Assembly (NCBI RefSeq): GCF_030730865.1
Contig: NZ_JAVALZ010000003.1
Span: 620,001-684,000 of the forward strand
Direction: 5' to 3'
Origin: Uliginosibacterium sp. 31-16
GTDB lineage: Bacteria; Pseudomonadota; Gammaproteobacteria; Burkholderiales; Rhodocyclaceae
Length of the DNA: 64,000 nucleotides
Shown here piece by piece: positions 9,629 to 53,245 of the stretch (positions are counted from its first letter, which is position 1; every line of letters starts with the position of its first letter). The notes beneath the pieces were generated by a model, which had not been told where the DNA came from, did not search any database, and worked only from the letters and a program-made list of their open reading frames with translations. The translations under genes were made by a program, and so were the position numbers.

Positions 9629-9679
9629 GTCATTCCTGCAGGTTGCTGAATCGCTGTGTGTTTGCGCCGTACGCCTGGA

Positions 9680-10351: not shown

Positions 10352-10368
10352 TCAGCAGCTCCCTTGCG

Positions 10369-10402: not shown

Positions 10403-10499
10403 GCATGTGCCGTGGGGATAAGCGCCCGTGGCGGGTTTCCGGGTGTGCATGCTGGAGAGCGCCGTCCTGCGCGGCTTTCCGGGCATGGCTTGCAGCGTG

Positions 10500-11507
10500 T
10501 CAGACAAAGGCATCGTCGCCACCCTTGCCGCCCAGCATGATCTGGCCTTCTTCCGAGAGGCGCCGGGCCGTCTTGAGAATCTCTTTTTGCGCCGTTTCGA
10601 CTTCGGACAGGCGAACCGGTCCGCGCGATTCCAGATCCTCGCGCAACATTTCGGCGGCCCGACTGGACATGTTCTTGAAGATCTTCTCGCGCATCTCGGG
10701 CTGCGCCCCCTTGAGGGCGATGACCAGCTGGTCGCCCTGGACTTCGCGCAGGATGGTCTGGATGCCGCGGTCGTCCACATCCATGAGGTTTTCGAACACG
10801 AACATCTCGTCGAGGATGCGCTGGGCCAGATCCGGATCGTATTCGCGCACGTTGTCGAGAATGGCCGTCTCTGCCGCGTTGCCGACAAAGTTGAGGATTT
10901 CGGCGGCGTGGCGGGTGCCGCCCATCGACGCTTTCTTGAGGCTCTGCGCCGAGCCGGACAGCACGCGGGCCAGTGCTTCGTTGAGTTCCTTCAGGGCTGT
11001 CGGTTGCACCCCGTCCAGTGTCGCGATCCGCAGCAGGATGTCGTTGCGCTGGCGGTCGTTGAAATGCCGCAGGATTTCTCCGGCATGGTCGAATTCCAGG
11101 TGCACCAGGATCGTTGCAATGATCTGCGGGTGCTCGTTCTTGATCAGGTCGGCTGCGGTGGCAGCATCCATCCATTTCAGGGACTCGATGCCGGCCGTGT
11201 CAGAGCCTTGCAGCACGCGCGAGATGAGATTGGCGGCACGTTCATCGCCCAGCGCCTTGGTCAGCATCGTGCGGATAGCTTCCTCGTCCGGCTCGATGTG
11301 CGAGCCGCGTGCCGCGTGCATCTGCAGTTCTTCAAGCAGCTTCTCGACACGTTCGCGCGATTGCGGCGTCATCCGGGCCATGCCGGAGCCCAGCTTCTGC
11401 ACCTCGCGTGGAGACAAGTGTTTGAGAATTTCTGCCGCTTCGTCGCCCCCCAGCGTGAGCAGCAGCAGGGCACTCTTTTCCAGTCCTTCGTTAGCGTCCT
11501 TCGCCAC
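10500..11507 (-). CDS. fliG: Flagellar motor switch protein FliG
   Basis: FliG is the C-ring protein that contacts the stator and generates torque. The protein has 335 residues in the standard three domains: an N-terminal domain bound by FliF (MAKDANEGLEKSALLLLTLG), a middle domain with EHPQIIATILVHLE (the EHPQ motif binds FliM), and a C-terminal domain with the charged torque helix around DDRGIQTILREVQGDQLVIALKG. Its start overlaps the end of fliF by 17 bases, which suits the tight FliF-FliG stoichiometry. Confidence 0.97.
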   Translation of the reverse strand: MAKDANEGLEKSALLLLTLGGDEAAEILKHLSPREVQKLGSGMARMTPQSRERVEKLLEELQMHAARGSHIEPDEEAIRTMLTKALGDERAANLISRVLQGSDTAGIESLKWMDAATAADLIKNEHPQIIATILVHLEFDHAGEILRHFNDRQRNDILLRIATLDGVQPTALKELNEALARVLSGSAQSLKKASMGGTRHAAEILNFVGNAAETAILDNVREYDPDLAQRILDEMFVFENLMDVDDRGIQTILREVQGDQLVIALKGAQPEMREKIFKNMSSRAAEMLREDLESRGPVRLSEVETAQKEILKTARRLSEEGQIMLGGKGGDDAFV

Positions 11508-13194
11508 TTGCGCCTCCTCCCATCCATTCCTTGATCAACTGCGCCACCATCTTTGGATCCTTCTTGGCGACTTCGCGTGCCCGGGCCAGTTTCTTCTCGA
11601 AACTCATCTTCGCCAGCTCCAGCTCCAGCACCTCGGGCGGGATGTCGGAGTCGACCATCTGGGCGCGCTCTTCCAGATTCTCTGCCGAGAGCGGCGCTTC
11701 GATTTCTTCCTCCTCCTCTTCCGGCTTGGGCGGTGCCACGCTGCGCATCAGAGGCTGGATCACTTTCTTGATCACGAACAGGATCACCAGCGCCAGGACC
11801 AGCCAGCGTGCGAGCTCCTTGAGCAGGGCGATGACTTCGGGATCCTTGTACATCGGCAAAGCGACCACATCTTCTTTTGCCGGATCGGTAAAGGCCGTAT
11901 TGGTGACGTTGATGGTGTCGCCGCGTTTTTCGCTGTAGCCCACCGCTTCACGCACCAGATCATTGATCTTCTTCACCTCGGCTTCGGTCAGCGGTACGGT
12001 TTTGAAATTGCCCTTGGCGTCCTTTTCACTCTTGTGATTGACCAGCAGTGCGACTGACAGGCGCTTGACCTGGCCCAGCGCGCGCTTGACGTGCTGCACG
12101 GTCTTGTCGACCTCGAAATTGGTGGTGGCGGTCTTGCTCGAATTCAGCGGGATCGGCACGGGCCCGGACTGGGCAACGGTGCCTGGCACCACCGGCGAGG
12201 TGATCGGTGCAGTGGCCGGCACGGGTGGCTGATTGGAAAGTGCGCCCGGCACGCCGAGCGGGCCGGGGTTGTTGGCAATGTTTTCGCTGGTCTGCAAGCT
12301 GCGAATCGATGTGTTCGGTGGCGGGTTGGGCTTGTAGGTTTCGGAGGTCTGCTCGGCGTCGTCGAAATCCACGTCGGCCATGACCTGGGCGCGGAAGTTG
12401 GTGGAGCCCAGCATCGGATCAAGGATCTTCTGGATGCGCGTGATATAGCTTTCTTCCACATTGCGCACATATTCGAGCTGGGTGTCGTCCAGTGCCGGGC
12501 CACCCTGTTTGCGCTGGCGGGCCAGCAGGTTGCCGTTCTGGTCGATCACGCTGACCTGGTTGGCGGCCAGCTCGGGTACGCTGGACGAGACCAGATGCAC
12601 GATGCCGGCAATCTGTGCGGCGTCCAGCGTGCGGCCGGCGCGCAGGCTGACGACGATCGAGGCGGTGGGCTTCTGTTCGTTGCGCAGAAAAGCGCTTTGC
12701 TTGGGAATGGCCAGATGCACCCGGGCGCCGGCGACTGCAGCAATGGACTGGATGGTGCGGGCCAGTTCGCCTTCCAGTGCGCGTTGGTAATTCACCTGTT
12801 CGTGAAATTGCGACAGACCGAGTTTCTGGTTTTCCAGCAGTTCGAAGCCGACCGAGCCACCGCGCGGCAAGCCCTGCGCAGCCAGCGTCAGGCGCAATTC
12901 ATTGGCGCGGGTGGAGGGCACCATGATCGTGGCGCCACCATTTTCGATCTGGTAAGGCACGTTCTGCTGCTGCAACGCGGTGACGATGGCGCCACCGTCC
13001 TTCTCTTCGACATTGGAGAACAGTACCGAGTATTGCGGCTGCTGGCTCCACAGCCAGACACCGACGAGCAGGGCGATCGCAAGCGCCAGCGCAGCCGCGC
13101 CGGCCATCTTCTGGCGCGGCGAAAGCCGGTTGAAATTGTCGATCATCACCTGCATAGGTGAGGCGGGCGGCGTGGGCAGTGCTTCTTCGGCCAT
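11491..13194 (-). CDS. fliF: Flagellar MS-ring protein FliF
   Basis: FliF forms the MS ring, the membrane base of the flagellum. The protein has 567 residues, with two transmembrane helices (about 31-51, MAGAAALALAIALLVGVWLW, and about 455-475, WLVLALVILFVIKKVI). Between them is a large periplasmic part with the ring-building motifs (YSVLFSNVEEKDGGAIV, ARVHLAIPKQSAFLR). The C-terminal cytoplasmic tail carries the FliG-binding segment and an acidic EEEEEEIEAP stretch. It is the first gene of the minus-strand fli operon. I did not find a clear sigma-54 site in the 183-bp divergent gap to flrB. Confidence 0.97.
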   Translation of the reverse strand: MAEEALPTPPASPMQVMIDNFNRLSPRQKMAGAAALALAIALLVGVWLWSQQPQYSVLFSNVEEKDGGAIVTALQQQNVPYQIENGGATIMVPSTRANELRLTLAAQGLPRGGSVGFELLENQKLGLSQFHEQVNYQRALEGELARTIQSIAAVAGARVHLAIPKQSAFLRNEQKPTASIVVSLRAGRTLDAAQIAGIVHLVSSSVPELAANQVSVIDQNGNLLARQRKQGGPALDDTQLEYVRNVEESYITRIQKILDPMLGSTNFRAQVMADVDFDDAEQTSETYKPNPPPNTSIRSLQTSENIANNPGPLGVPGALSNQPPVPATAPITSPVVPGTVAQSGPVPIPLNSSKTATTNFEVDKTVQHVKRALGQVKRLSVALLVNHKSEKDAKGNFKTVPLTEAEVKKINDLVREAVGYSEKRGDTINVTNTAFTDPAKEDVVALPMYKDPEVIALLKELARWLVLALVILFVIKKVIQPLMRSVAPPKPEEEEEEIEAPLSAENLEERAQMVDSDIPPEVLELELAKMSFEKKLARAREVAKKDPKMVAQLIKEWMGGGASGEGR

Positions 13195-16527: not shown

Positions 16528-17466
16528 TCAGAAGCCGTTCTCCCGGTGCGGTGCAACCGCTGCCCGGACATTGGTTTCGGTCAGCTCCGGCGAGCAAAGC
16601 TCGATGAAGCGGAACGCGAAGCCGCGCAGATAGTGGCCGCGACGTACGGCGATCAGGGTCGTGTTGCGGGCGAACAGATGTGAGGCGTCGATCAGGCGCA
16701 AGTCCTGATCCCTGGCTGGATTGAAGGCTCCGGGCGCAATGATGCCGACGCCTAGCCCCAGTTCGACATAGGATTTGATCACATCAGCATCCAGTGCCGA
16801 CATCACGATATCGGGTGACAGATTGGCTTCGGCAAAGGCCTTGTCGATCTTGCTGCGGCCGGTAAAACCGGTGTGGTAGGTAATCAGCGGGTGTTCGGCC
16901 AGCGCCGTCAGCGTCAGTTCTGGCTCATTCAGCAAGGGATGGCCGGCGGGCACCAGCACGGCGTGATGCCAGTCGTAGTAAGGGAAAGTCACCAGTTCCG
17001 GCTCGTTGTCGAGCGATTCGGTGGCAATGCCGATGTCGGCTTCGCCCGAGAGCAGTTGCTGGACGATTTCCTGCGGGCTGCCCTGATGCAGCGCCAGATG
17101 CACCTTCGGATACTCCTGCTTGAAGGTTGTGACCACCTTGGGGATCGCGTAGCGTGCTTGGGTGTGAGTGGTGACGACGGTCAGCTGCCCCTGATCCCGC
17201 TGGGTGAACTGGTCGGCGAGTTTCTTGATGTTGCGGGCGTCGAGCAGCATGCGTTCGACGATGACCACCAGTTCCTTGCCTGGCTCGGTCAGGCCGAGCA
17301 AGCGCTTGCCGCGCCGGATGAAGAGTTCGACCCCCAGTTCATCTTCAAGATCCTTGATGTGCTTGGAGACCCCGGGCTGGGAGGTGAACAGGGCATTGGC
17401 CACCTCGGTGAGGTTGTAATTCTGGCGCACGGTTTCGCGCACGATACGTAATTGCTGGAAGTTCAT
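16528..17466 (-). CDS. cysB: LysR-type sulfur regulator CysB
   Basis: This is a LysR-type activator of 312 residues closely resembling CysB/Cbl, the master regulator of sulfur assimilation. It has an N-terminal winged helix (MNFQQLRIVRETVRQNYNLTEVANALFTSQPGVSKHIKDLE, read in parts) and an effector domain with the CysB-type TTHTQARYAIP, HQGSPQEIV and GLGVGIIAPGAF segments. It is the last gene of the cysTWA operon, 2 bases after cysA. It could control several sulfur operons in this window. Cbl/SsuR cannot be excluded without a tree. Confidence 0.9.
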   Translation of the reverse strand: MNFQQLRIVRETVRQNYNLTEVANALFTSQPGVSKHIKDLEDELGVELFIRRGKRLLGLTEPGKELVVIVERMLLDARNIKKLADQFTQRDQGQLTVVTTHTQARYAIPKVVTTFKQEYPKVHLALHQGSPQEIVQQLLSGEADIGIATESLDNEPELVTFPYYDWHHAVLVPAGHPLLNEPELTLTALAEHPLITYHTGFTGRSKIDKAFAEANLSPDIVMSALDADVIKSYVELGLGVGIIAPGAFNPARDQDLRLIDASHLFARNTTLIAVRRGHYLRGFAFRFIELCSPELTETNVRAAVAPHRENGF

Positions 17467-17468
17467 GG

Positions 17469-18578
17469 TCAGATTCCTGCTGCAATGTAAGGGGCTGTAT
17501 GAGGCTGCGAGGGCGTCTGGAATACCTTGAGATGCGAAGGCGTGATCCGTACTTCACTCCCGGTTCTCAGTTGCAGGGCAATCAAGCGCTCAAGGGTCAA
17601 TTCGACTTCGTAGTGATGCAATGTGCCGGAGGTGTCGATGCGTTCCAGTTCGACCCGCGCAGTCAGGCCAAACGCCTGAATACGGGCAATCCTGGCGCGT
17701 AGCCCCTCTACCTGCGTCAGATCGGTATCGATATCCAGCTCGTGAGGCCGGGCAAAGGCAATGACCTCGGCTCCCTGCGGGATATTGTCCTCCGCATGCG
17801 TCAGCGAGTGTTCATCAACCTGTAACGCACCTTGCCCTGCGCGGCCGTGAAACAGATTAACGGACCCCAGGAAGCTGTAGACGAAGGGCGTTTTCGGGGC
17901 GTTCCAGACTTCTTCCGGAGTACCGATCTGCTCGACGCTGCCGTGATTCATCAAGACCACGCGATCCGCAACCTCCAGCGCTTCTTCCTGATCGTGGGTG
18001 ACGAAGATGCTGGTGATGTGCAGCTCATCGTGCAGGCGCCGCAGCCAGCGCCGCAATTCCTTGCGCACTTTCGCATCCAGCGCGCCAAAGGGTTCGTCGA
18101 GCAGCAGCACGCGGGGTTCCACAGCCAGAGCCCGCGCCAGGGCGATGCGCTGACGCTGGCCGCCGGAGAGTTGCGAGGGGAAGCGATCCGCCAGCCAGTC
18201 CAGCTGAACCAGCTTGAGCAGTTCGGTAACCTTCTTGCGGATCACGTCTTCGGATGGGCGCTCGTTGCGCGGTTTCACGCGCAGGCCGAAGGCAATGTTG
18301 TCGAACACGCTCATGTGGCGGAACAGCGCGTAGTGCTGGAACACAAAACCGACCTGACGATCGCGTACGTGCGTGGCGGAGGCGTCCGTTCCTTCTAGGA
18401 TGACATTGCCTTTGTCCGCCTGCTCGAGGCCGGCAATGATGCGCAGCAAGGTGGTCTTGCCGCAACCGGAGGGGCCGAGCAGGGCGACCAGTTCTCCGGT
18501 CGGGAAGTCGAGCGAAACGTCGTTCAGTGCGACGAAGCTGCCGAATTGCTTGCGAATGTTCTGGACCTGGATGCTCAT
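17469..18578 (-). CDS. cysA: Sulfate/thiosulfate ABC transporter ATPase CysA
   Basis: This is the ATP-binding subunit of the sulfate/thiosulfate importer, 369 residues. Walker [15 protein letters not shown] (about 32-45), signature [15 protein letters not shown], Walker [13 protein letters not shown] and the switch histidine ([15 protein letters not shown]) are intact. The C-terminal TOBE-like domain (about 240-350) is typical of CysA. It overlaps cysW by 4 bases and precedes cysB. Confidence 0.95.
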
Positions 18579-19492
18579 GGCGTTTCTTCCTGTTGGCTGT
18601 CACGGGCAGTGCGCGCGGCCTGCCACTCGATATAGGTTTTCAGTATCAGGGTGATCAGTGCCAGTACCGCCAGCAGTGAAGCCACTGCAAACGATGCTGC
18701 AAACTGGTACTCGTTGTAGAGGATTTCGATCTGCAGGGGCAGCGTGTTGGTCATGCCGCGGATATGCCCGGAGACCACACTGACTGCGCCGAACTCGCCC
18801 ATGGCACGGGCATTACACAACACCACGCCATACAGTAATCCCCATTTGATGTTGGGCAGGGTGACGTGCCAGAAAGTCTGCCAGCCGCTGGCGCCCAGCA
18901 CGATGGCAGCCTCTTCTTCCTCCTTGCCCTGAGCCTGCATCAGCGGGATCAGTTCGCGGGCAATGAAAGGGAATGTGACGAATATGGTGGCCAGCACGAT
19001 GCCCGGTACGGCAAACACGATCTTGATGTTGTATTCCGACAGGTAAGGCCATAGCCAGCCTTGTGCGCCGAAAAGCAGTACATAAATGAGGCCTGCCACC
19101 ACGGGCGATACAGAGAACGGCAGATCAATCAGCGTGATCAGCAGCTGCTTGCCGCGGAATTCAAACTTGGCAATTGCCCAGGCTGCTGACACGCCAAACA
19201 CCAGATTCAGGGGGACGGCGATCGCTGCCGCCAGCAGTGTCAGACGTACCGCTGCCAGCGCATCCGCTTCGGTAATCGCGGCCAGATAGACATCCCAGCC
19301 TTTCTTGAAGGCTTCGACGAAAACGGTGGCCAGAGGCAGCAGCAGGAAGCCTGCAAAGAACAGCAGCGAAATGCTCAGGATCGTCCATTTGACGAGCGGA
19401 TTGTCGCGTGTGGCGGGACTGTCTTCGTAGTGACGTGCCTGATTCAGCGACGCCAGATGTGCCGCGTTCAATGTTGCTGTAGCGCCTGCCAT
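18575..19492 (-). CDS. cysW: Sulfate/thiosulfate ABC transporter permease CysW
   Basis: This is the second inner-membrane permease of the sulfate importer, 305 residues with about six transmembrane helices. The conserved [24 protein letters not shown] loop docks to CysA. It has an unusually long cytoplasmic N-terminus (about 35 residues) before the first helix. It overlaps cysA by 4 bases and cysT by 1 base. Confidence 0.94.
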
Positions 19493-41700: not shown

Positions 41701-42501
41701 TCAGGCCGCCAGGGCGTCCGGTTTTATAAGGGTCTTGCCGAGCAGTTGATTCAGCAGCAATTCTTCCAGTGCAGCAAAAGCTGCATCGCTGCGCGCCCGC
41801 GGCCGTGGCAGGCGCACATGCAGATCCTGGGTGATCTGCCCGTCTTCGATAAGGATTACGCGATCAGCGAGCGCTATGGCTTCGTGCACGTCATGCGTCA
41901 CCAGCAGGGCTGTGAAGCCATGTTCGCGCCACAGCGATTCGATCAGGGCGTGCATTTCGATGCGGGTCAGGGCGTCCAATGCACCGAGTGGTTCATCCAG
42001 CAGCAGCAGACGCGGGCGGTGTACGAGGGCACGGGCCAGTGCGACCCGCTGACGCTGCCCGCCGGAGAGACGGCTGGGCCAGTCGAAGCGTCGGTCGGCG
42101 AGGCCGACTTCATTCAGCACGTCGAGTACTTCCAGATAGCGATCCCGCGTGAGTCCGAGACTGACATTGGCAAGCACCTTCTTCCAGGGGAGCAGGCGGG
42201 ACTCCTGAAACATGATGCGGGTGTCGTCATGTGTGGACTCCTGGCGACCATCATGCAACTGAACACCACTCTGGATTTCTTCCAGCCCGGCGATCACGCG
42301 CAGGAGTGTGCTTTTGCCGCAGCCACTACGCCCGACGATGGCAACGAACTCACCGGGCTGAATGTCCAGGTCGATGCTGCGCAGAACTTCGCGCTCGCCA
42401 TAGCGTTTGACGATACTGCGCAGGCTCAGGCCCGTACCTTTTGCATTGACGATGGCAGCACTGCTGGCCAAGGCTTCAGTTTCACGTGAATTGTGGTTCA
42501 T
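41701..42501 (-). CDS. ssuB: Alkanesulfonate ABC transporter ATPase SsuB
   Basis: This is the ATPase of the aliphatic sulfonate importer, 266 residues from [17 protein letters not shown]. The longer open frame upstream overlaps ssuC and is rejected. Walker [16 protein letters not shown], signature [15 protein letters not shown], Walker [13 protein letters not shown] and [15 protein letters not shown] are intact. The [15 protein letters not shown]-loop is characteristic of sulfonate/nitrate/taurine ATPases. Confidence 0.93.
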
Positions 42502-42523
42502 GGCTTTCACCTCCTGATTCAGT

Positions 42524-43303
42524 TCAGTGTTGATATCCGGGATGCCAGCGCAGCCAGAAGCGCTCCAGCCCTCGCGCCGTGAGATCGGCAAACTTGCCGA
42601 GCAGGGCGTAGAGCAGGATTCCGACCAGCACAATGTCGGTTTGCAGGAATTCGCGGGCATTCATGGTCATGTAACCGATGCCTGAGCTGGCCGAAATGGT
42701 TTCAGCCACGATCAGGATTACCCACATGAAGCCTAGCGAGAAGCGCACGCCGACCAGGATCGAAGCGGTTGCGCCGGGAAGGATGACGTCGCGATACAGG
42801 CCCCAGCCGGAAAGGCCATAGCTGCGTCCCATCTCGATGAGCGTGGCGTCAACCGAGCGGATGCCGTGATAGGTGTTCAGATAGATCGGGAAGAAAACCC
42901 CGATGGATACCAGAAACAGCTTGGCCCCTTCATCGATACCGAACCACAGGATCACCAGCGGGATCAGCGCCAGCGGCGGGATGTTGCGCACCATCTGCAA
43001 GCTGGTGTCGAGCAGGATTTCAGCGCGCCTGAAACTGCCTGTTAACAACCCCAGCAGCAGCCCGGCCCCCCCGCCAATGGCAAAACCGGACAAGGCCCGA
43101 CGGGCGCTGACCGCCACGTGTTGCCATAGCTCTCCTGACAACGCGAGAGTCCAGGCGGCTTTGCCGATAGCCAGTGGCGCTGGCAAGACGCGGCTGGAGA
43201 GCCAGCCAGTCTGGGCTGCGAGTTGCCACAGGAGCAGCAGCAAGACCGGTGCCACCCAGGGAAGTGATCGTTGCCAGACGAGACGGGGCAGGGACTGACT
43301 CAT
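42524..43303 (-). CDS. ssuC: Alkanesulfonate ABC transporter permease SsuC
   Basis: This is the permease of the sulfonate importer, 259 residues with about six transmembrane helices. It shows [28 protein letters not shown] and the coupling loop [28 protein letters not shown]. It overlaps ssuD by 4 bases. The best alternatives are taurine or nitrate permeases, but the neighbouring ssuD supports sulfonates. Confidence 0.93.
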
Positions 43304-44499
43304 GCAGGAACCTTTCTGTCTTCATGTTCCGGTCGCCCTGTTCTGGCTGGAACAAAGTGGTTGCCGACGATTTCGCCGAATGGGCCAGTCAGCGTCTTCC
43401 CCGGCAGGCGATCGGATGTGGTGTGCTCCAGCGGCAGCAACGGAAAGACCAGTTCGGCAAAGCGATAAGCCTCTTCCAGATGCGGGTAGCCTGAAAGCAC
43501 GAAAGCCTCTGCACCGATAGCCTGATACTCGCGCAGCTTGGCCGCTACCTGTTGCGGATTACCGACGATGGCGGTGCCTGCACCACCTCGTACGAGGCCG
43601 ACACCCGCCCACAGATGCGGGTCTATTTCCAGGTCGGCACGTGTCCGACCCTTGCCTTGACCATGCAGGGCAGCCATGCGGCGTTGGCCTTCGGATTCCA
43701 TCTTGCCCAGAGCGCCCTGAGCACGTGCCACGGTCTCGTCATCGAGCCGGCTGATCAGGGACTCAGCTGCGGCCCAGGCTTCTTCCTCGGTTTCGCGAAC
43801 GATCACGTGCAGGCGTACGCCGAACTTCACCTTGCGCCCATGTCTGGCGGCGCGGGCGCGCACATCATCGAATTTCTTCCTGACCTCTGCTGGTGGCTCA
43901 CCCCATGACAGATAAGTCTCAACCTGTTCGGCCGCCAGATCATGGGCAACGTCCGAGGAGCCGCCGAACCACACTGGCGGATGCGGATTCTGGATCGGCG
44001 GGTAGAGAAGACGGGCTCCGGATACCTGCAGGTGCTCGCCCTTGAAGTCAAAACTTTCATTGGAGTGACTGCGGGCGATGATTTCCCGCCAGATCCGGAT
44101 GAATTCGCCTGCTGCGGCATAGCGCTCGGCATGTGACTGGAACAGTCCATCACCCGCGAGTTCGCTGGAGTCTCCACCGGTAACCAGATTGACCAGCAGG
44201 CGTCCGCCGGAGAGACGGTCAAACGTTGCTGCCATGCGTGCGGCGAGCGCAGGTTGAGTAAGTCCGGGGCGCAGCGCAACGAGAAAGCGCAAATTGCGAG
44301 TGGCACCGATCAGGCTGGCGGTGACGACCCACGGATCTTCGCAGGAACGCCCGGTGGGCGTGAGTACGCCGTAATAGCCAAGCTGATCGGCTGCCTGTGC
44401 GATCTGGCGCAGATAGTCGAGACTGACTTCGCGAGCCCCTTCGCTGGTGCCGAGGTAGCGACTGTCGCCGTGGGTGGGCAGAAACCAAAGGATTTTCAT
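43300..44499 (-). CDS. ssuD: FMNH2-dependent alkanesulfonate monooxygenase SsuD
   Basis: SsuD cleaves alkanesulfonates to an aldehyde and sulfite. The protein has 399 residues in a luciferase-like TIM barrel. Family motifs are [32 protein letters not shown] (conserved Cys near residue 54), [19 protein letters not shown] and [27 protein letters not shown]. Length and motifs match SsuD (about 380) with a slightly longer tail. Its sulfite product would feed sulfide and cysteine synthesis encoded nearby. Confidence 0.94.
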
Positions 44500-44585: not shown

Positions 44586-45545
44586 TCAGCGTTTCAGGGC
44601 GGCGTCACGCACCTTGATGGCCTTCGGAATCAGCTTCAGTTCGAAGAAGGTGTCGGCCACCTTCTGCTGGTTGTCGAGGATCTTGTCGTCAATGGCCACG
44701 GTTTGCAGCTCATAGCGCGTCAATGCCTGTTCCACGATGGCAGGATCAAGCCCTTGCAGTGGCGCGATGATGGCTGCCGCTGCTTTCACGTCCTTCTTGA
44801 TGATCAGCGCATGCTTCTGTGACTCCTCGAAAATCAGCTTGATCACGTCAGCTCGTTTCTCCGCGAATTCGCGTTCGGCCAGGAAGAAGTTGTAGTTGCT
44901 GACGATGCCGGTGCCATCGGCAAGGATGCGGGCATTAGCCTGCTTCTCGGCTGCCGAGAGGAAGGGCTCCCAGATGACCCAGGCATCGATACTGCCTTTT
45001 TCGAATGCGGCACGTGCGTCGGCGGGGGGCAGGAATACAGGGGTGATGTCGCTGTACTTCAGACCAGCCTTCTCAAGCGCCTTGACCAGCAGGTAATGCA
45101 CGTTGGAGCCCTTGTTCAGTACAACCTTCTTGCCCTTCAGGTCGGCTACGGTTTTGATGGCCGAGTTTTTCGGCACAAGGATCGCTTCGGCCTGGGGGGA
45201 GGGGATTTCGGTGCCGACGTAAATGAAATTCGCACCGGCCGCCTGAGCGAAGATTGGCGGAGCTTCGCCGACGTTGCCGATATCGATGGCGCCAACATTC
45301 AGACCTTCAAGAAGTTGCGGGCCAGCCGGAAATTCAACCCATTTCACTTCGATGCCTTTCGGCGCGAGCAGCTTCTCGAGGGTGCCTTGTGACCTGATCA
45401 GAGACAGGATGCTGGCGGACTTCTGGAATCCGATGCGCAGCTGCTTCGGGTTGTATTCGGCAGAGGCTGGCGTTGCCATGCCAAGTGTGGCCATAGCCAG
45501 GACGGCAGCAAGCAGCTGGCGATGGAAACTCTTCGGTGTATTCAT
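44586..45545 (-). CDS. ssuA: Alkanesulfonate-binding protein SsuA
   Basis: This is the periplasmic binding protein of the sulfonate importer, 319 residues from [12 protein letters not shown], with a signal peptide (1-30, cut after TPASA). Motifs [54 protein letters not shown] and [21 protein letters not shown] are diagnostic of SsuA. It is the first gene of the ssu operon. The 285-bp gap upstream is shared with the divergent rhodanese gene. Confidence 0.93.
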
Positions 45546-45652
45546 TTGATTGCTCCCTGTGGTGAGTGAGTGATTCGTCGGCATCTGCATGCTCTGGACA
45601 TGACGCACTCTATTCAGGGGAGACATCCAAGGGAACGAAGGATTTCAGAATT

Positions 45653-45708
45653 GCTTATGCACAAGGCGCGAGGTGATCTGGTTGTGCTTATCAACATTCT
45701 GGATAAGC
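45653..45708. promoter_or_regulatory. Dyad-symmetric site between ssuA and the rhodanese gene
   Basis: GCTTATC (45686-45692) and GATAAGC (45702-45708) form a perfect 7-bp dyad with a 9-base spacer, typical of LysR-type contacts. GCTTATGC occurs 26 bases before it (45653). The gap drives two divergent sulfur operons, so CysB or a related regulator is the likely binder. Confidence 0.5.
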
Positions 45709-45830
45709 GAACAACTTTTTATTCGTTTTGCTGGTTAAAGCCAGCACATATGCTGCAGTCCATTCCCAAGGCCAGCATTCATTCCTGATGGATGCATGGT
45801 GCTCGCCAAATACCGAATATGGAGGAAGTG

Positions 45831-46358
45831 ATGCCTTTATCTACTCTTCAGGATGCTCCTGCAAATGCGGCAAACCGTCATGGCTTGAGTCAGGCTCTGT
45901 CTGCCGATGAAACTTATGCAAAAGAAATTCTTGTTCGGGCACGTGAACGCGCTGCAGAGCGGAGTCTCCCGTTCTCGGGTGGTGTAACGCCTGTCGAAGC
46001 CTGGGAGTTGTTCAATCAGGGAGCCGCTTTGATCGTCGATGTCCGTAGTGCAGAAGAGCGCAAGTTTGTAGGACACGTTCCGGAAACCTTGCATGTTGCC
46101 TGGGCGACCGGGACTGCACTGACACGCAATCCGCGTTTCGCCAGAGAACTTGAGGCAAAAGTCGGAAAAGAGGCTGTTGTTCTTCTTCTGTGCCGCAGTG
46201 GGAAACGTTCTGCTCTGGCGGCAGAAGTTGCAGCCAAGGCTGGTTTCAAGAATGTTTTCAATGTGTTCGAAGGCTTCGAAGGCGACTTGAACGACCTGCA
46301 GCAGCGTGGCGAGAGCAACGGCTGGAAGCACTGGAATCTACCTTGGGTACAGGACTGA
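45831..46358 (+). CDS. Rhodanese-domain sulfurtransferase
   Basis: This is a single-domain rhodanese of 175 residues from MPLSTLQDAP, placed after a GGAGGA ribosome site. Another in-frame ATG lies at 45819. The active-site loop is C121-R-S-G-K-R in VLLLCRSGKRSALAA, and VEAWELFNQGAALIVDVRSAEER gives the fold. The first 45 residues are extra and charged. It starts a plus-strand run of sulfur genes that leads to the encapsulin, and it may move sulfane sulfur between thiosulfate, cysteine pools and the compartment. Confidence 0.9.
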   Translation: MPLSTLQDAPANAANRHGLSQALSADETYAKEILVRARERAAERSLPFSGGVTPVEAWELFNQGAALIVDVRSAEERKFVGHVPETLHVAWATGTALTRNPRFARELEAKVGKEAVVLLLCRSGKRSALAAEVAAKAGFKNVFNVFEGFEGDLNDLQQRGESNGWKHWNLPWVQD

Positions 46359-46408
46359 TCATTTGGTTCTGAACGAAAGAATTTCAATCAGAAGTCGGAG
46401 ATACAAAC

Positions 46409-47383
46409 ATGTCTAAATGGTTTTCAGATAATTCCAGATCCATTGGTGGAACGCCGCTGGTCAAGCTCAACCGCATCACCGGTGGCGCTGGTGCCACGGT
46501 GCTGGCGAAGATAGAAGGACGGAATCCCGCATACTCTGTCAAATGCCGGATCGGTGCCGCCTTGATCGACGACGCGGAAAAGCGTGGCCTGCTCGGGCCG
46601 GGCAAGGAACTGGTCGAGCCTACCAGTGGCAACACCGGGATTGCACTGGCCTTCGTCGCCGCTGCACGCGGCATTCCGCTGACCCTGACGATGCCTGAGA
46701 CGATGAGCCTGGAGCGGCGCAAGCTGCTGGTTGCTTACGGAGCCAGGCTGGTGCTGACCGAAGGCGCCAAGGGTATGAGTGGTGCGATTGCCAAGGCAGA
46801 GGAAATTGCGGCGTCGGACCCCAAGTATGTGCTGCTGCAGCAGTTCAAGAATCCGGCCAACCCGGCCATCCACGAAGCCACCACGGGCCCCGAGATCTGG
46901 GATGCTACCGATGGTGCGGTGGATATCTTCGTTTCCGGCGTGGGTACGGGCGGCACGATTACCGGGGTGTCGCGCTATATCAAAAAAGCCAAAGGCAAGG
47001 CGATTACTTCCGTGGCGGTTGAGCCGGCGTCCAGTCCGGTGTTGAGCCAGACGCGCAATGGCGAGCCGGTCAAGCCGGGGCCGCACAAGATCCAGGGCAT
47101 CGGCGCCGGTTTCGTGCCTGGCGTTCTGGATCTGTCGCTGGTAGATAGCATCGAGCAGGTCAGCAATGAAGATGCTGTCGAGTTTGCCCGTCGCCTGGCG
47201 CGCGAAGAAGGGATTCTGTCCGGTATCTCCAGCGGTGCTGCTGCAGCCGTCGCTGTGCGTCTGGCCCAGAAGCCCGAAAATGCGGGCAAGACCATCGTGG
47301 CAATCCTGCCGGATTCGGGTGAGCGCTATCTGAGCTCGGTGTTGTTTGAGGGGCTTTTTGACGCGGCCGGGATCGCGGCATGA
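46409..47383 (+). CDS. cysK: Cysteine synthase (O-acetylserine sulfhydrylase)
   Basis: This is a PLP enzyme of 324 residues that makes cysteine from O-acetylserine and sulfide. PLP lysine K45 lies in [11 protein letters not shown], followed by the substrate loop [10 protein letters not shown], the phosphate-binding [11 protein letters not shown] and [15 protein letters not shown]. It ends 4 bases into the acetyltransferase gene, so the substrate producer and user are translationally coupled. A and B isozymes (CysK, CysM) are hard to separate by eye. Confidence 0.93.
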
Positions 47384-48357
47384 ACATCAGGCTTTCGTCC
47401 CTGGATGGGGCCGGTGCTTCAATGCTGGCCTCCGCCACGCCGAACTGGGATCTGGACCGTGTCGTTGCCGGCCTGCGTGAAGTACGCGAAAGCTGGCGTG
47501 AGGCCCAGCAGCGCCGCCATGAATATGGCGGGCGCGAGCTGCCGTCGCCGGAAACCCTGCGTCAGCTTCTGCTGTCCCTGCGGGGGGCACTGTTTCCAAT
47601 GCGTCTCGGTCCAGCCGACTTGCGTCAGGAAAGCGAGGATTTCTACGTCGGCCATACCCTGGATGCGGCCTTGAACAACTTGCTCGTCCAGGTACGGCTT
47701 GAGTTGCGCTATGCAGCCCGCCAGACAAACGCGGGGGCTACCTCGCTGGAACTTCAGGCAGCAGGCATTGTGCGTGATTTTGCTGGCGCCTTGCCGGATA
47801 TCCGTCGCCTGCTTGATACCGACGTGGCGGCAGCTTTTCGCGGTGACCCTGCCGCGCGCAGCGTGGATGAAGTGCTGCTGTGCTATCCCGGCGTCGTGGC
47901 AATGATTCATCACCGCATTGCCCACAAGCTGCATCAGCTTGGCGTTCCTCTGCTGGCACGCATCGTGGCGGAGCTGGCGCATTCCGAAACCGGAATTGAC
48001 ATTCATCCCGGTGCGCAGATCGGCCCGGGGTTCTTCATCGATCACGGGACGGGTGTGGTGATCGGAGAAACCGCCATCATCGGCCGCAACGTGCGTGTCT
48101 ACCAGGCGGTCACCCTGGGGGCCAAGCGTTTTAGCAGCGATGAGGCAGGCACGTTGCACAAGGGCTTGCCGCGTCATCCGATTGTTGAAGATGACGTGGT
48201 GATCTACGCCGGCGCATCGGTACTGGGGCGGGTCACCATCGGCAAGGGCTCGGTGATTGGCGGCAATGTCTGGCTGACGCGCAGTGTTTCAGCGGGAAGC
48301 AACGTGACGCAGGCCAATTCCCAGCATGAAGTGCTGAACCACGGTGGAGGGATTTAA
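47380..48357 (+). CDS. epsC: Serine O-acetyltransferase (EpsC/CysE type)
   Basis: This protein of 325 residues makes O-acetylserine for cysteine synthase. An all-helical N-terminal region (1-190) precedes a left-handed beta-helix of hexapeptide repeats (about 195-300) with [33 protein letters not shown] and VTLGAKRF. The long N-terminal half is that of the EpsC-type enzymes commonly found beside family 2A encapsulins. It overlaps cysK by 4 bases; the XRE gene starts 2 bases after its stop. Confidence 0.92.
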
Positions 48358-48359
48358 GC

Positions 48360-48581
48360 ATGAGTCCGGTCGTCAACCGATTCCCTGCCGTCGTACGCCA
48401 GTTGCGCGAAGCGCGTGGCTGGTCGCAGGAAGAGCTCGCCGAGCGTGCCGATCTGAACCGTTCCTATGTGGGTGAGATCGAGCGCGGTATTGCCATGCCT
48501 TCACTGGTGACCATCAACAAACTTGCCTGCGGTTTCGAGCTTTTGCCCTCCTATCTGCTGGCGCGCTGTGAGCAACATTGA
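48360..48581 (+). CDS. Small XRE-family helix-turn-helix regulator
   Basis: This is a protein of 73 residues that is little more than one lambda-repressor-type helix-turn-helix (VVRQLREARGWSQEELAERADLNRSYVGEIERGIAMPSLVTINKLACGF, read in parts). It is at the end of the rhodanese-cysK-epsC unit and just upstream of the encapsulin promoter, so it may regulate the compartment genes. Its single cysteine pair (C57, C70) could sense redox state, which is speculative. Confidence 0.88.
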   Translation: MSPVVNRFPAVVRQLREARGWSQEELAERADLNRSYVGEIERGIAMPSLVTINKLACGFELLPSYLLARCEQH

Positions 48582-48605
48582 TGGCTTTGTGCTGGCGATA
48601 GCATG

Positions 48606-48634
48606 TTGAGACACGCTTAGAAGAAAAGCATATT
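48606..48634 (+). promoter_or_regulatory. Sigma-70-like promoter for the encapsulin gene
   Basis: TTGAGA (48606-48611) and CATATT (48629-48634) are 17 bases apart, about 50 bases before the encapsulin start. A strong AAGGAG site follows at 48671-48676, 6 bases before the ATG. The boxes suggest that shell and cargo can be expressed separately from the upstream cysteine genes. Confidence 0.5.
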
Positions 48635-48682
48635 TGGTAAGACGTTTTCCTGATAAACCCTGAATCTTGCAAGGAGCCATGA

Positions 48683-49612
48683 ATGGCCGCAAATGAAGTC
48701 CAGCAAGCGCTTGGCGATAACGCCGCACGCCAGCTTGCGAATGCCACCAAGACTGTCCCGCAGCTTTCCATCATCACGCCGCGCTGGCTGACCCATCTGC
48801 TGCAGTGGCAACCCGTCGAGGCTGGTATCTACCGCCTGAACAAGGTCAAGAATCCGCTGGATGTGCAGGTAACCTGCACTCAGCGCGAAGGCTTCGGCGA
48901 ACTGCCGAACACCTTCGTTGATTACGAAGAAGCCCCGCGCGAGTACTTCCTCAATGCAGTCAGCACCGTGCTGGACGTGCAGACCCGCGTGTCCGATCTC
49001 TACAGCAGCCCGCATGACCAGATCAAGGAACAACTGCGCCTGACGATCGAAACGATCAAGGAGCGTCAGGAGTCCGAACTCATCAACAATCCGGACTACG
49101 GCCTGCTTGCGAGCGTGCATCCGGATCAGATCATCTATCCGCTGACAGGCGCACCGACGCCGGACGATCTGGACGAGCTGCTCACCAAGGTGTGGAAAGA
49201 GCCGGCCTTCTTCCTGACTCACCCGCTGGCGATTGCCGCCTTCGGCCGTGAGTGCACGCGCCGTGGCGTGCCGCCCCCCACAGTGTCGCTCTTCGGCTCG
49301 CAGTTCCTGACCTGGCGCGGCATCCCGCTGATCCCGTCGGACAAGGTGCCGGTGGCCGATGGCAAGACCAAGATTTTGCTGATCCGCGTGGGCGAGAAGC
49401 GCCAGGGCGTGGTTGGCCTGTTCCAGCCGGGTCTGGCGGGCGAACAAAGCCCGGGTCTGTCTGTGCGCTTCATGGGCATCAACCGCAACGCCATCGCGTC
49501 CTACCTGATTTCGCTGTACTGCTCGCTGGCTGTGCTGACCGACGACGCGCTGGCCGTGCTTGATGATGTGGAGATCGGCAAGTTCCATGACTACCCAGAC
49601 ACCTACAAGTAA
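48683..49612 (+). CDS. Family 2A encapsulin shell protein (SrpI-like)
   Basis: This is a protein of 309 residues highly similar in layout and wording to cyanobacterial SrpI, a phage-HK97-fold shell protein that self-assembles into a hollow nanocompartment. Recognisable blocks are DNAARQLANATKTVPQLSIITPRWL, QWQPVEAGIYRLNKVKNP, DQIKEQLRLTIETIKERQESELI, PTPDDLDELLTKVWKEPAFFLTHPLAIAAFGRECTRRGVPPPTVSLFGS and MGINRNAIASYLISLYCSLAVLTDDALAVL. It overlaps its cargo gene by 26 bases. Known members package a cysteine desulfurase; the shell and cargo here match that rule. Confidence 0.95.
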   Translation: MAANEVQQALGDNAARQLANATKTVPQLSIITPRWLTHLLQWQPVEAGIYRLNKVKNPLDVQVTCTQREGFGELPNTFVDYEEAPREYFLNAVSTVLDVQTRVSDLYSSPHDQIKEQLRLTIETIKERQESELINNPDYGLLASVHPDQIIYPLTGAPTPDDLDELLTKVWKEPAFFLTHPLAIAAFGRECTRRGVPPPTVSLFGSQFLTWRGIPLIPSDKVPVADGKTKILLIRVGEKRQGVVGLFQPGLAGEQSPGLSVRFMGINRNAIASYLISLYCSLAVLTDDALAVLDDVEIGKFHDYPDTYK

Positions 49613-51524
49613 TCCTGCAGGCGCAGGCAGCTTGGGTGGTGTGACGGGGCTGACGCCGCCGGCTGGCCTTCCCGAGGGGCCTCCCTCGGGCCTGCCGGAT
49701 GTGGCAAGCCTGGCAAAGCTGGCGGGCGAATTCTTTTCCGCCTTGCCGACGACAGCGCTCCCAGGTGGTGCCACTAATGGTTTGCCCCTCGGGCTGAGCC
49801 ATCTGGGTGGCCCGTCGCAGCTCGCTACGCCGCCTCAGCCATCCGAGCCGGTGTTGGCACTTGGTGCGCGAGCCCCTGCGCTCGCTCCGGTTGCCCAGAC
49901 ACAGACCGGGCTGCCTGAAAAGGCGGTGGATTCTGCTGGCGTATCGAGCCGTTCTCCGGCGCAGGGCGTGCCCGAAGCCTATGCGGCCTCGCTGCCCAGC
50001 ATCGATCTGCCGCAAGCCCCCGTGCAAGCGCCAGCAACGCCGCCCAGCTCACCGTATTACTTCCTCGGTGAAACGAGCGCGTATCCGGTTGCCGACGAAG
50101 TCGATGTGCCGCGTGAAGATCGCGTGACAGCCCGTTCTTTCGGTTTGCCCGGTGAGGACGAGTTGTGTGCGTTGCTCGGTGGTGTGCCGCCAACCGCTGC
50201 TGCTCCGACTGCCGAACCTGCGAAGAAGGATCAGTGGTTCTACTTCACGGATCTGACTCGTAACGAGAATGGTCGTGCTCCGGCGTCGCAAGCCGGCGCA
50301 CGTCCGCCTTTCGATGTGAACGCCGTGCGCCGCGACTTTCCGATCCTGCAGGAACGCGTTAATGGCAAGCAGCTGGTCTGGTTCGACAACGCTGCCACCA
50401 CCCACAAGCCGCAGGCCGTGATCGACCGTCTGGCTTACTTCTACGCCCACGAGAATTCCAATATTCACCGTGCGGCGCATGAACTGGCTGCGCGGGCGAC
50501 GGATGCCTACGAGGGGGCGCGCAACAAGGTCAAACGCTTCATCGGTGCCAGCTCCACGGAGGAAATCATCTTCGTGCGCGGCGCCACCGAAGCGATCAAT
50601 CTGGTTGCCAAGACCTGGGGCGCGCAGAACATCGGCGAGGGGGACGAGATCATCGTCTCCAATCTGGAGCACCATGCCAACATCGTTCCCTGGCAGCAGC
50701 TGGCTGCTGCCAAGGGTGCGAAGCTGCGTGTGATACCGGTGGATGACACGGGGCAGATCCTGCTCGACGAGTATCGCAAGTTGCTCAACGACAAGACCAG
50801 GATCGTCGCGGTGACGCAAGTCTCCAACGCGCTCGGCACCGTCACGCCGATCAAGGATATTGTCGCCCTCGCACACAGCGTGGGTGCCAAGGCGCTGGTC
50901 GACGGCGCGCAATCCGTGTCGCACATGCGGGTGAATGTGCAGCAGCTGGATGCCGACTTCTTCGTCTTCTCGGGCCACAAGATCTTCGGCCCGACCGGCA
51001 TCGGCGTGGTCTACGGCAAACGCGACATCCTCGAAAACATGCCGCCCTGGCAGGGTGGGGGCAACATGATCGCGGACGTCACGTTTGAGCGCACGATCTA
51101 TCAGCCGCCGCCCAACCGCTTCGAAGCCGGCACCGGCAACATCGCGGATGCGGTAGGCCTCGGCGCGGCGCTGGATTATGTGGATCGCATCGGCATCGAG
51201 AATATCGGGAGCTACGAGCACGATCTGCTGGCTTATGCCACGCAAGGCTTGCTGACGATTCCGGGTATCCGCCTGATCGGCACGGCGGCCGAGAAAGCCA
51301 GTGTTGCGTCCTTCGTGCTCAAGGGCTTCACCACGCAGGAAGTGGGCGAAGCACTGAACCGCGAAGGCATTGCGGTGCGTACCGGCCACCATTGCGCCCA
51401 GCCGATTCTGCGGCGCTTCGGTGTCGAGCAGACCGTGCGGCCCTCGCTGGCTTTCTACAACACCTGCGAAGAGGTCGATCGCATGGTGCGCGTGGTGTAT
51501 CAGCTGGCGACTTCGCGTCGTTGA
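49587..51524 (+). CDS. Encapsulin cargo: SufS-type cysteine desulfurase with long N-terminal loading domain
   Basis: This is a protein of 645 residues. The C-terminal part (about 243-645) is a class II cysteine desulfurase that releases sulfur from cysteine as a persulfide: PLP lysine K465 in FSGHKIFGPTGIG, catalytic C603 in RTGHHCAQPILRRFG, and EHHANIVPWQ. The first 242 residues are proline/alanine-rich and probably disordered, with three islands of conserved-looking character: ASLAKLAGEFFSALP (40-54), SPYYFLGE (155-162) and QWFYFTDL (216-223). Such extensions load family 2A cargo into the shell. The ATG lies inside the shell gene. Confidence 0.94.
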   Translation: MTTQTPTSNPAGAGSLGGVTGLTPPAGLPEGPPSGLPDVASLAKLAGEFFSALPTTALPGGATNGLPLGLSHLGGPSQLATPPQPSEPVLALGARAPALAPVAQTQTGLPEKAVDSAGVSSRSPAQGVPEAYAASLPSIDLPQAPVQAPATPPSSPYYFLGETSAYPVADEVDVPREDRVTARSFGLPGEDELCALLGGVPPTAAAPTAEPAKKDQWFYFTDLTRNENGRAPASQAGARPPFDVNAVRRDFPILQERVNGKQLVWFDNAATTHKPQAVIDRLAYFYAHENSNIHRAAHELAARATDAYEGARNKVKRFIGASSTEEIIFVRGATEAINLVAKTWGAQNIGEGDEIIVSNLEHHANIVPWQQLAAAKGAKLRVIPVDDTGQILLDEYRKLLNDKTRIVAVTQVSNALGTVTPIKDIVALAHSVGAKALVDGAQSVSHMRVNVQQLDADFFVFSGHKIFGPTGIGVVYGKRDILENMPPWQGGGNMIADVTFERTIYQPPPNRFEAGTGNIADAVGLGAALDYVDRIGIENIGSYEHDLLAYATQGLLTIPGIRLIGTAAEKASVASFVLKGFTTQEVGEALNREGIAVRTGHHCAQPILRRFGVEQTVRPSLAFYNTCEEVDRMVRVVYQLATSRR

Positions 51525-51544
51525 GTGTGTTGTAAGCAATCGCA

Positions 51545-51577
51545 AGCCGGCAGCCGGGAAACCGCTGCCGGCTTTTT
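51545..51577 (+). terminator. Rho-independent terminator after the encapsulin cargo gene
   Basis: AGCCGGCAG (51545-51553) pairs with CTGCCGGCT (51565-51573) and is followed by a T-run. It lies 21 bases after the stop and 20 bases before the OsmC-like gene, so OsmC is partly insulated. Confidence 0.8.
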
Positions 51578-51596
51578 CATTTGAGAGAGTCCGAAT

Positions 51597-52019
51597 ATGG
51601 AATGCACCGTCAGCTGGGCCGGGGAGGCCCGTTTTATTGCCTCAACCGGCAGTGGTCACGAAGTCCGCATGGAAGGCGGGGCAGGCGAGCTGGGAGGGAA
51701 AAACCAGTTTCCCCGACCGATGGAAATGATTCTGGCCGGCGCTGGCGGCTGCACTGCTTACGACATCGTTGTGCTTCTCAGGCGTGAGGGCTATGCGGTA
51801 GAGGGATGCAAGATTCGTCTTGATGCCGAGCGAGCAGGAAGCGAGCCCAAAGTATTCACACGCATCCATTATCACTACACGGTGAGCGGGCGTGACATTG
51901 AGCCAGACGCCGTGGCGCGTGCGATCGCGCTGTCTGCCGGAAAGTACAGCTCAGCGGCGAACATGCTGTGCAAGACCGCACAGCTCGTTCACGACTTCGA
52001 GGTCGTCAACGCGGTCTGA
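51597..52019 (+). CDS. OsmC/Ohr-family thiol protein (YhfA-like)
   Basis: This is a protein of 140 residues with the OsmC fold. Its two redox cysteines are C52 (in GAGGCTAYDIV) and C125 (in AANMLCKTAQL), the pair that reduces peroxides or handles persulfides in this family. It follows the desulfurase gene and overlaps the convergent MFS gene by 31 bases. A role in resolving persulfide or peroxide stress from released sulfur is plausible inference. Confidence 0.88.
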   Translation: MECTVSWAGEARFIASTGSGHEVRMEGGAGELGGKNQFPRPMEMILAGAGGCTAYDIVVLLRREGYAVEGCKIRLDAERAGSEPKVFTRIHYHYTVSGRDIEPDAVARAIALSAGKYSSAANMLCKTAQLVHDFEVVNAV

Positions 52020-53245
52020 GCGGAGATGTTTTCGACTCGCCCGATCTCCGGTTCGCGGATGGGCAGGTTCACCAGTGCGGCGAACGCGGCCAGGCCCATG
52101 TCGGCCCACCACATCGGCGTCAGGCTGTTCCAGCGTGCCAGTGCCAGGCCACCCAGCCAGGCACCGAGAAAGCCGCCGATCTGGTGTGAGAGCAGGGTCA
52201 GGCCGAAGAGTGTCGACAGATAGCGATTGCCGAAGAGTTTGCTGACCACACCAGCGGTGGGCGGCACGGTGGCGAGCCAGGTGGCGCCGAGGCCGGCGGC
52301 GAAGAGGTAGAAGCTGGCGGATGTGCGCGGGCTGGCGAGAAAGAGCAGGACCATCGCGGCGCGTGCGCCATACAGCCAGACCAGAATCAGTTTGCTGCGC
52401 AAGTGCTGCACCAGCCAGCCGGCGGTGAGGCTGCCGAGGATGTTGAAGAGGCCGATCACCGCCAGCGAGCCGCTCGCCACGCCAGCGGGCAGCACGCACA
52501 GACTTACTTCGCCGGGCAGATGGGTGACGAGAAAGGCAATGTGGAAGCCGCAGGTAAAAAAGCCCGCATGCAGCAGCAGGTAACTGCGATCCCGCAATGC
52601 CGTGCGGAGCACGCTGGAGAGCCGCTCCCCGCCTTGCTCTGCAGCATGCATGCGCGCAGAGGTAATGCTGGCGGGCCTCTTCAGGATGCGGGCCAGGGGC
52701 AGGGCGCACAGCGTGATGAAGGCAAGCCCGCACAAGGCACCGACCCAGCCACTGAACAGGATCAAGCCTTGCACCAGCGGCGCAAAGAGGAACTGGCCGA
52801 CGCTGCCGCCCGCGTTGATGATGCCGGCGCTCATGCCACGGTGTTGCGGCGGCAGGCGCTGGGCAATCGCTCCGATCAGCACCGAGAAAGCACCGGAACC
52901 GGTGCCGGCGGCCATCAAGACGCCGAGCACCAGACTCAGGCCCGGCGTCGAGTGCATCAGCGGCGTCAGCAGCAAGCCGACAGCCTGCAGAATCAGTGCG
53001 GCCACCAGTACGCGGCCCGGACCATAGCGGTCAGCCACCGCGCCGGCAACTGGCTGGATCGCGCCCCACACGAACTGGTTCACGGCCATTGCCAGGCTGA
53101 TGCTGGCGATGCCCAGGCCGGTGGCGGTATTCAGTGGCGAGACGAACAGCCCGAGCGACAAGCGCGTGCCCAAGGTGACGGCGAGTACTGCGGCGGCGGC
53201 CAGGGCGAGCCTGATCCAGTGGTTCGGGTGAGGAGTGCCGGTCAT
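51989..53245 (-). CDS. Major facilitator superfamily transporter
   Basis: This is a 12-helix MFS exporter or importer of 418 residues from MTGTPHPNHWIRLAL. The open frame extends 34 codons upstream but with no supporting features. The signature VADRYGPGRVLV lies between helices 2 and 3, and TLFGLTLLSHQIGGFLGAWLGGLA near the end is typical of YbfB/oxalate-formate-like members. Substrate is unknown. Its 3' end runs 31 bases into the OsmC-like gene on the other strand. Confidence 0.85.
   Translation of the reverse strand: MTGTPHPNHWIRLALAAAAVLAVTLGTRLSLGLFVSPLNTATGLGIASISLAMAVNQFVWGAIQPVAGAVADRYGPGRVLVAALILQAVGLLLTPLMHSTPGLSLVLGVLMAAGTGSGAFSVLIGAIAQRLPPQHRGMSAGIINAGGSVGQFLFAPLVQGLILFSGWVGALCGLAFITLCALPLARILKRPASITSARMHAAEQGGERLSSVLRTALRDRSYLLLHAGFFTCGFHIAFLVTHLPGEVSLCVLPAGVASGSLAVIGLFNILGSLTAGWLVQHLRSKLILVWLYGARAAMVLLFLASPRTSASFYLFAAGLGATWLATVPPTAGVVSKLFGNRYLSTLFGLTLLSHQIGGFLGAWLGGLALARWNSLTPMWWADMGLAAFAALVNLPIREPEIGRVENISAQTALTTSKS

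Follow-up and report, generated by a model that had tools for sequence, protein, structure and literature searches.

A 64,000-nucleotide stretch of the genome of Uliginosibacterium sp. 31-16 (hereafter the window, whose numbering is used throughout) carries on its forward strand a family 2A encapsulin shell gene (48683..49612) and, directly after it, the gene for a cysteine desulfurase cargo (49587..51524). In front of this pair stands a gene for a 73-residue helix-turn-helix protein (48360..48581, forward strand), a candidate regulator of the shell-cargo promoter, followed by a 20-base-pair (bp) element, TGCTGGCGATAGCATGTTGA (48590..48609, forward strand), which we propose to be an operator. 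The promoter itself (48606..48634, forward strand) was recognised by a scan and by cross-locus spacing, and consists of the -35 hexamer TTGAGA (48606-48611), a 17-bp spacer and the -10 hexamer CATATT (48629-48634). The regulator gene and the promoter element, situated between an acetyltransferase gene and the shell gene, went unmentioned in the original prediction, made from the sequence alone, and are the less expected part of the locus.

That prediction had described the pair as a family 2A (SrpI-type) encapsulin and its known cysteine desulfurase cargo, and profile searches bear this out for both genes. The shell open reading frame (ATG at 48683, stop at 49612, 309 residues) scores 531 bits against the family 2A shell model NF041162 (cut-off 380); it also passes the 2B model NF041163, at 412 bits for a cut-off of 400, yet this is below the 2A score, and the highest-scoring 2B alignment spans positions 218-449 of the 450 in the profile. 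In Pfam the protein matches SrpI-like alone (338 bits), with no cyclic-nucleotide-binding domain. Its closest solved relative is 8t6r, 'Major membrane protein I' (572 bits), and an HK97-type fold is predicted on the grounds that close sequence relatives are solved shells; structure prediction of the shell gave a low-confidence model (predicted local distance difference test, pLDDT, 34). The adjoining reading frame (ATG at 49587, stop at 51524, 645 residues, or nine more from an alternative TTG start at 49560) encodes a SufS-like desulfurase with an N-terminal extension, and reaches 930 bits against NF041166, the model dedicated to the family 2A cargo desulfurase (cut-off 800). The extension holds counterparts of both published cargo motifs, LARLANEFFS and AASPYYFLDG (PMC8049743), in the form of LAKLAGEFFS (residues 42-51; 49710..49739, forward strand) and SSPYYFLGET (residues 154-163; 50046..50075, forward strand). 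Shell assembly and cargo loading are expected here from homology to solved shells and from the experiments on published relatives.

For comparison we used 80 named loci, the best 80 of the 560 relatives found, which are close kin since all have at least 85% shell identity. When a strict regular expression was applied to 79 related loci, 29 showed both cargo motifs and 35 a single one; the other 15 had neither, several of these being cut off or misframed. The predicted 26-base overlap of the two genes is present (49587-49612) and is not due to chance: 60 of the 79 related loci also have an ATG at position -26, and the histidine codon that gives it is CAT in 60 of 78 cases, versus 159 of 388 among other shell-gene histidine codons (Fisher test, 5e-9, kinship among loci ignored). 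Within its own genome the shell protein has a single match. The same genome holds three further full-length class-V aminotransferase/desulfurase matches, two further cysK/cysM-type genes over cut-off, and one cysE-type gene over cut-off besides the cassette's own, which scores below; given these extra copies, the cassette has the look of an additional, specialised set of sulfur genes.

The best PDB matches of the small helix-turn-helix protein are the restriction-modification controller proteins C.BclI (E 1.5e-9) and C.AhdI (E 1.6e-9). Its AlphaFold2 model is confident (pLDDT 94.5), and Foldseek places it nearest C.AhdI (template modelling, TM, score 0.80) and C.BclI (0.88), normalised by query length, with C.Esp1396I among the next matches. 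It shares with these three proteins its size, its fold and an R-S/T-Y sequence in the recognition helix. Among 38 aligned regulators, comprising that of the window and those of 37 of the 57 loci that have the gene, W21, S22, Q23, E24, N33, R34, E41, R42 and eight more residues are invariant. The protein likely works like a controller; it is not a restriction-modification controller, and we do not call it one because no such system accompanies the gene, restriction-modification genes being absent from the neighbours examined in the window and in the related loci.

When upstream sequences were lined up, the block before the shell gene proved strikingly conserved. The 53 aligned sites, which are those of the window and of 52 loci recovered with a loose pattern that missed five regulator-bearing loci, read TG-N-Y-G-K-C-K-A-T-A-G-C-M-K-G-T-T-G-A, with little conservation thereafter and GANACT 17 bp past TTGANN. 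The strict 13-mer KATAGCMKGTTGA precedes the shell gene in 49 of the 57 named loci with the regulator gene and in none of the 23 without it, and is found nowhere else in the 80 loci (1,483,154 bp, both strands). A weight matrix built from the 53 sites, for which the named loci are training loci, gives at least 15 bits within 260 bp upstream in 55 of 57 loci with the regulator versus 1 of 23 without; these counts include one locus whose shell start is mis-set (L020) and one whose element lies 233 bp upstream (L037). The genomes of the window's own family offer a second sample, of 73 encapsulin loci (window excluded), in which the element is present in all 35 loci with the regulator (at least 20.7 bits) and in none of the 38 without (at most 1.5 bits). 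Three 60-mers were tested per locus for overlap with the named loci, and 16 of the 73 had one in common with them; once these are removed the contrast is 23 of 23 versus 0 of 34, again with a minimum score of 20.7 bits in loci with the regulator, a maximum of 1.5 bits in those without, and 14 distinct site sequences.

A tree of 81 shell genes implies 13 gains or losses of the regulator gene, of which supported branches force at least 10. In independent pairs of loci discordant for the regulator, with the element sought at 15 bits or more in 350 bp upstream, the element follows the gene in 9.7 of 10 pairs when averaged over 200 pairings (sign test: median p of 0.002, highest 0.02). At the level of whole genomes, a 16-mer of the element was found in 37 of 297, with 29 matches directly in front of the shell gene and 8 at other places; for the reversed pattern the same 297 gave 13 hits. 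Seven of the eight off-shell matches were read: three lie in one conserved coding frame, which by eye looks like hrcA, and three look like chance. In one genome (G276; L153 and L161) the 16-bp element stands, with no encapsulin, about 70 bp after a helix-turn-helix gene whose product is 46% identical.

A second copy of the element, before the rhodanese gene that opens the cassette, was considered as part of the claim and dropped. At 9 bits or more it is found in 5 of 55 regulator loci (L038, L064, L066, L068, L069) and in none of 19 without the regulator, random stretches giving 13 of 3,821, and the best score in the window is only 2.9 bits. L005 and L006 also carry a weaker copy near the rhodanese gene, and across loci such copies stand in either orientation.

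The element keeps a nearly constant distance from the shell start (quartiles 94-99, range 81-233), and a far more variable one from the regulator stop (quartiles -3 to 30, with extremes of -31 and 225). Its last 4 bp overlap the -35 hexamer, and its centre falls about 8 bp before that hexamer, at about -42 from the expected transcription start. In a scan of 45500-52100 the sigma-70-type site at 48606-48634 is the sole forward-strand site in 6.6 kb, although with both strands counted there are two sites, which equals the shuffled mean of 2.0. When spacers of 13-22 bp were compared over 58 loci, 17 bp came out best, with 24 of 58 loci showing at least four matches to TATAAT (the next best, 22 bp, had 11 of 58); the -10 is weak, with a mean of 3.1 of 6 matches. 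The scan reported no terminator-like site between the regulator and shell genes, so read-through from an outer promoter would be possible. The published operator of C.Esp1396I is built as GAC-TATA-GTC with a conserved outer TG (PMC3758141), and the element resembles controller operators in being TATA-centred, in having the outer TG and in lying near a -35 hexamer. Written as TG-N-Y-GKC-KATA-GCM, it has the controller layout with boxes GKC/GCM versus GAC/GTC. Unlike the sites of controller proteins, which precede the regulator gene, it follows that gene and sits at the encapsulin promoter.

What is observed, then, is a set of genes, an element in a fixed place at a conserved promoter, and the joint gain and loss of this element with the regulator gene. 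The explanation that we favour, with a probability of roughly 0.7, is a sulfur-limitation cassette whose small regulator binds the element and sets the output of shell and cargo. We infer that the regulator binds the element; that it activates rather than represses is a guess, based on the weak -10 and on the class-II-like position of the site. Under this explanation the rhodanese, CysK and serine acetyltransferase would make cysteine and handle persulfide sulfur, and the shell protein would assemble around the desulfurase, recruited through its two N-terminal motifs. The enclosed enzyme would convert cysteine to alanine and to sulfane sulfur that is stored or passed on, by analogy with the Synechococcus relative, for which N-terminus-driven loading and an approximately sevenfold higher turnover inside the shell are known (PMC8049743). 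Shell and cargo would have an additional promoter of their own inside the operon, at which a helix-turn-helix dimer on the 20-bp element would set the amount of both, and the pair would be timed separately from the cysteine-making genes.

Several observations weigh against this explanation. Two loci with the regulator (L005 and L028) have a weak element and one locus without it (L029) has a partial one. The matrix finds 18 more sites above 9 bits in the named loci, the best at 22.5 bits; seven of these are near the rhodanese gene and one is the element read backwards. The halves of the element mismatch beyond the central 8 bp, and its paired positions show no covariation beyond column composition. 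On the protein side, SinR and DdrO come close behind the controllers in Foldseek and phage-type regulators also match (PHROGs, best E 5.7e-10), so the fold is generic and the controller resemblance weaker than the names suggest. The main base-binding residues of C.Esp1396I are R35, T36 and R46 (PMC4041747); mapped through the aligned ranges of the PDB matches these become R34, S35 and A45 here, with the third lost. One genus (L162-L167) has a second copy of the regulator, 47-56% identical, together with cysK and acetyltransferase genes and away from the shell gene; no element above 9.3 bits is found in the 5-7 kb read there, and this copy may act in trans. Finally, beyond the window's family, neither regulator nor element stands in the 1.5 kb upstream in six encapsulin genomes of the same class, one of them under the family cut-off. 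Because of this absence the two are not general to family 2A, and the regulator-element module is confined to part of the family's range.

Of the alternatives, the one that fares best concerns the shell rather than its control, and we regard it as a serious contender that falls somewhat short of even odds. As proposed in the family 2A survey (PMC8346489), the shell would be a guarded relay, its persulfide taken only by the cassette rhodanese, and not a store. The near-constant company of a rhodanese gene, found in 74 of the 76 loci with more than 3 kb upstream, is what such a relay would lead one to expect. Storage of elemental sulfur has reportedly been seen for a related shell, which speaks for a store.

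Control of shell and cargo by the regulator could also be negative, the pair being kept off until a signal arrives. We consider repression possible, at appreciably less than even odds. The overlap of the element's last 4 bp with the -35 hexamer suits a repressor, and one Zoogloea locus without the regulator gene (L056, with the same site in L110) points the same way and against activation: its element has decayed to CCATACCGGGTTGA with the -35 and -10 kept, which fits the loss of a repressor better than that of an activator. Against this, a -10 as weak as that found here would suit an activated promoter, and controller proteins activate from a site beside the -35.

It is improbable, in our estimate, that the small gene is a passenger in an ordinary family 2A operon and the element the site of a general sulfur factor of the CysB or Cbl type. 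A LysR-type gene does adjoin a CysA-type ATPase gene in the window, and the title of a cited reference names CysR as controlling plasmid sulfur genes in Synechococcus. A general factor would not, however, explain why the element is gained and lost together with the small regulator gene, and the 16-mer is no commoner away from shell genes than its reversed pattern (8 versus 13 hits), which makes it ill-suited to be a global factor's site. That the element is conserved merely as coding sequence for the regulator's C-terminus (...L-M/T-A/S-I-A-C-stop), with no role as DNA, can be set aside as very unlikely: the regulator frame does enter it in 17 of 57 loci, often ending at the element's TGA, yet in 41 of 58 loci, the window among them, it lies entirely out of that frame and is no less a conserved block, and its near-fixed distance is to the shell gene and not to the regulator gene.

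The regulated pair is embedded in further sulfur genes. On the reverse strand lie ssuB, ssuC, ssuD and ssuA, in that order, and on the forward strand follow the genes for rhodanese, CysK, acetyltransferase, helix-turn-helix protein, shell, desulfurase and an OsmC-family protein. The rhodanese-domain protein (45792..46358; Pfam Rhodanese, 52 bits; its start may be downstream) is the first cassette gene, ahead of cysK, for O-acetylserine sulfhydrylase (46409..47383; TIGR01139, 452 bits), and an EpsC-type serine O-acetyltransferase gene (47380..48357; NF041874, 156 bits, cut-off 150). The last two overlap by 4 bp, and the helix-turn-helix gene starts 2 bp past the acetyltransferase. In the 76 loci with more than 3 kb upstream, the acetyltransferase is present in 65, the helix-turn-helix gene in 55, and cysK, counted up to 5 kb from the shell gene, in 9. 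Downstream, the desulfurase accompanies the shell in all 72 loci with more than 2.5 kb of sequence; the OsmC-family gene (51597..52019, forward strand; Pfam OsmC, 61 bits), 72 bp 3' of the desulfurase, has a relative in 1 of the 72 and is seemingly a lineage-specific addition.

A GGGI-like tail of CysE docks on CysK in the cysteine synthase complex, and the acetyltransferase here ends in ...NHGGGI, the GGGI being encoded at 48346-48357. As a cassette-wide trait the terminal isoleucine was dropped, since 3 of 68 complete relatives end in it and two in GxGI (L002 and L007, both with an adjoining cysK).

The ssu genes are divergent from the cassette, with a gap of 165 bp between ssuA, for the sulfonate-binding protein (44586..45626; NF008588, 330 bits, cut-off 299), and the rhodanese gene. 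Beyond ssuA lie ssuD, for the FMNH2-dependent alkanesulfonate monooxygenase (43300..44499; TIGR03565, 588 bits, cut-off 518), ssuC, for the permease of the aliphatic sulfonate ATP-binding cassette (ABC) transporter (42524..43303; NF008470, 378 bits, cut-off 347), and a gene for its SsuB-like ATPase (41701..42660; NF008420, 341 bits, under the cut-off of 395), whose start is probably further in. Relatives of SsuD with at least 60% identity occur in the examined flank of 6 of the 80 loci, where about 0.25 would be expected by chance from a background of 29 copies in 30 genomes (172.8 Mb in sum, with 171 Mb used in the calculation), the near-cassette count being by identity and the background by family cut-off; the 30 genomes are named isolates chosen from the 80, and include four in which ssuD was known to lie close to the cassette. 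With no identity threshold, relatives of SsuA, SsuB and SsuC are jointly present in 14 of 80 loci. The genome of the closest relative, U. aquaticum, has no SsuD.

Elsewhere in the window, a LysR-type regulator, an ABC ATPase with a CysA C-terminal domain and a permease lie side by side (16528-19492, reverse strand) and resemble a locus for sulfate transport; genes for sulfate, for sulfonates and for the encapsulin sulfur system are thereby found within 36 kb. An Rfam search of the window gave no match at the gathering threshold. At 6253-13194 (reverse strand), fliI and fliF score over their cut-offs and fliK is a weak match, in agreement with the prediction of a flagellated organism; its placing as probably a betaproteobacterium agrees with the closest named relative among the matches listed, Uliginosibacterium aquaticum, with 99% shell identity. 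The overall interpretation offered there is supported, and it rated highly a system that had already been described.

Indeed the shell-cargo pair on its own is ordinary, and the shell, cargo, rhodanese and serine acetyltransferase neighbours have all been published. Family 2A desulfurase operons number 1281 in 12 phyla, 813 of them in Proteobacteria, and rhodanese and serine O-acetyltransferase are the most enriched accessory genes there, as they are neighbours here (PMC8346489). Neither 'helix-turn-helix' nor 'promoter' appears in the main text of that survey, the accessory genes of its Fig. S5 being outside this statement, in contrast to a regulator present here in 55 of 76 loci. The locus also resembles SrpI/CyD of Synechococcus elongatus PCC 7942 in shell family, cargo desulfurase and both cargo motifs; that system is tied to sulfur starvation (PMC8049743), and for Synechococcus cited titles place cysteine-making enzymes on a plasmid and name a CysR. 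Unlike the present locus, SrpI/CyD is described, in the portions of that paper drawn on here, with no mention of a helix-turn-helix gene and element. The regulator, the element and the inner promoter were not found in the literature searched, outside which fell most subscription papers and all preprints and supplements.

A condition under which such a cassette is switched on is suggested by Rhodobacter capsulatus, where, going by annotation, the same four genes lie beside tauABC. Its sufS2, major membrane protein I, serine acetyltransferase-2 and rhodanese genes are 1005- to 1422-fold up on isethionate versus sulfate, and growth on isethionate is listed for mutants in which the gene for the desulfurase, the shell or the rhodanese is missing (PMC11423573). 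The set is thus switched by sulfur source and dispensable for growth on isethionate. The word encapsulin is absent from the main text of that study. Together with the enrichment of ssu genes near the cassette, this induction by a sulfonate points to the growth condition of interest.

Restriction-modification controllers delay the restriction enzyme by a build-up of the controller, and we may ask whether the same logic operates here. Tentatively, and at odds well below even, Betaproteobacteria would have taken up a controller-type protein to time, with a delay, the making of a protein organelle. The cysteine-synthesis enzymes and the regulator would come first, from the outer promoter, and the inner promoter would fire shell and desulfurase together once the regulator had accumulated. 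The desulfurase, which consumes cysteine and releases reactive sulfur, would then never precede the cysteine supply and its container.

The present locus bears on the conditions under which cells make family 2A encapsulins, and on their purpose in doing so. With a regulator gene named and a site defined to 20 bp, control of the shell becomes testable in culturable relatives, and the natural losses of the regulator are ready-made comparisons. If regulation of the pair by the small protein is confirmed, a controller-type protein would be serving a metabolic compartment; should the timer also prove true, the delay logic of restriction would have been reused for metabolic compartmentation.

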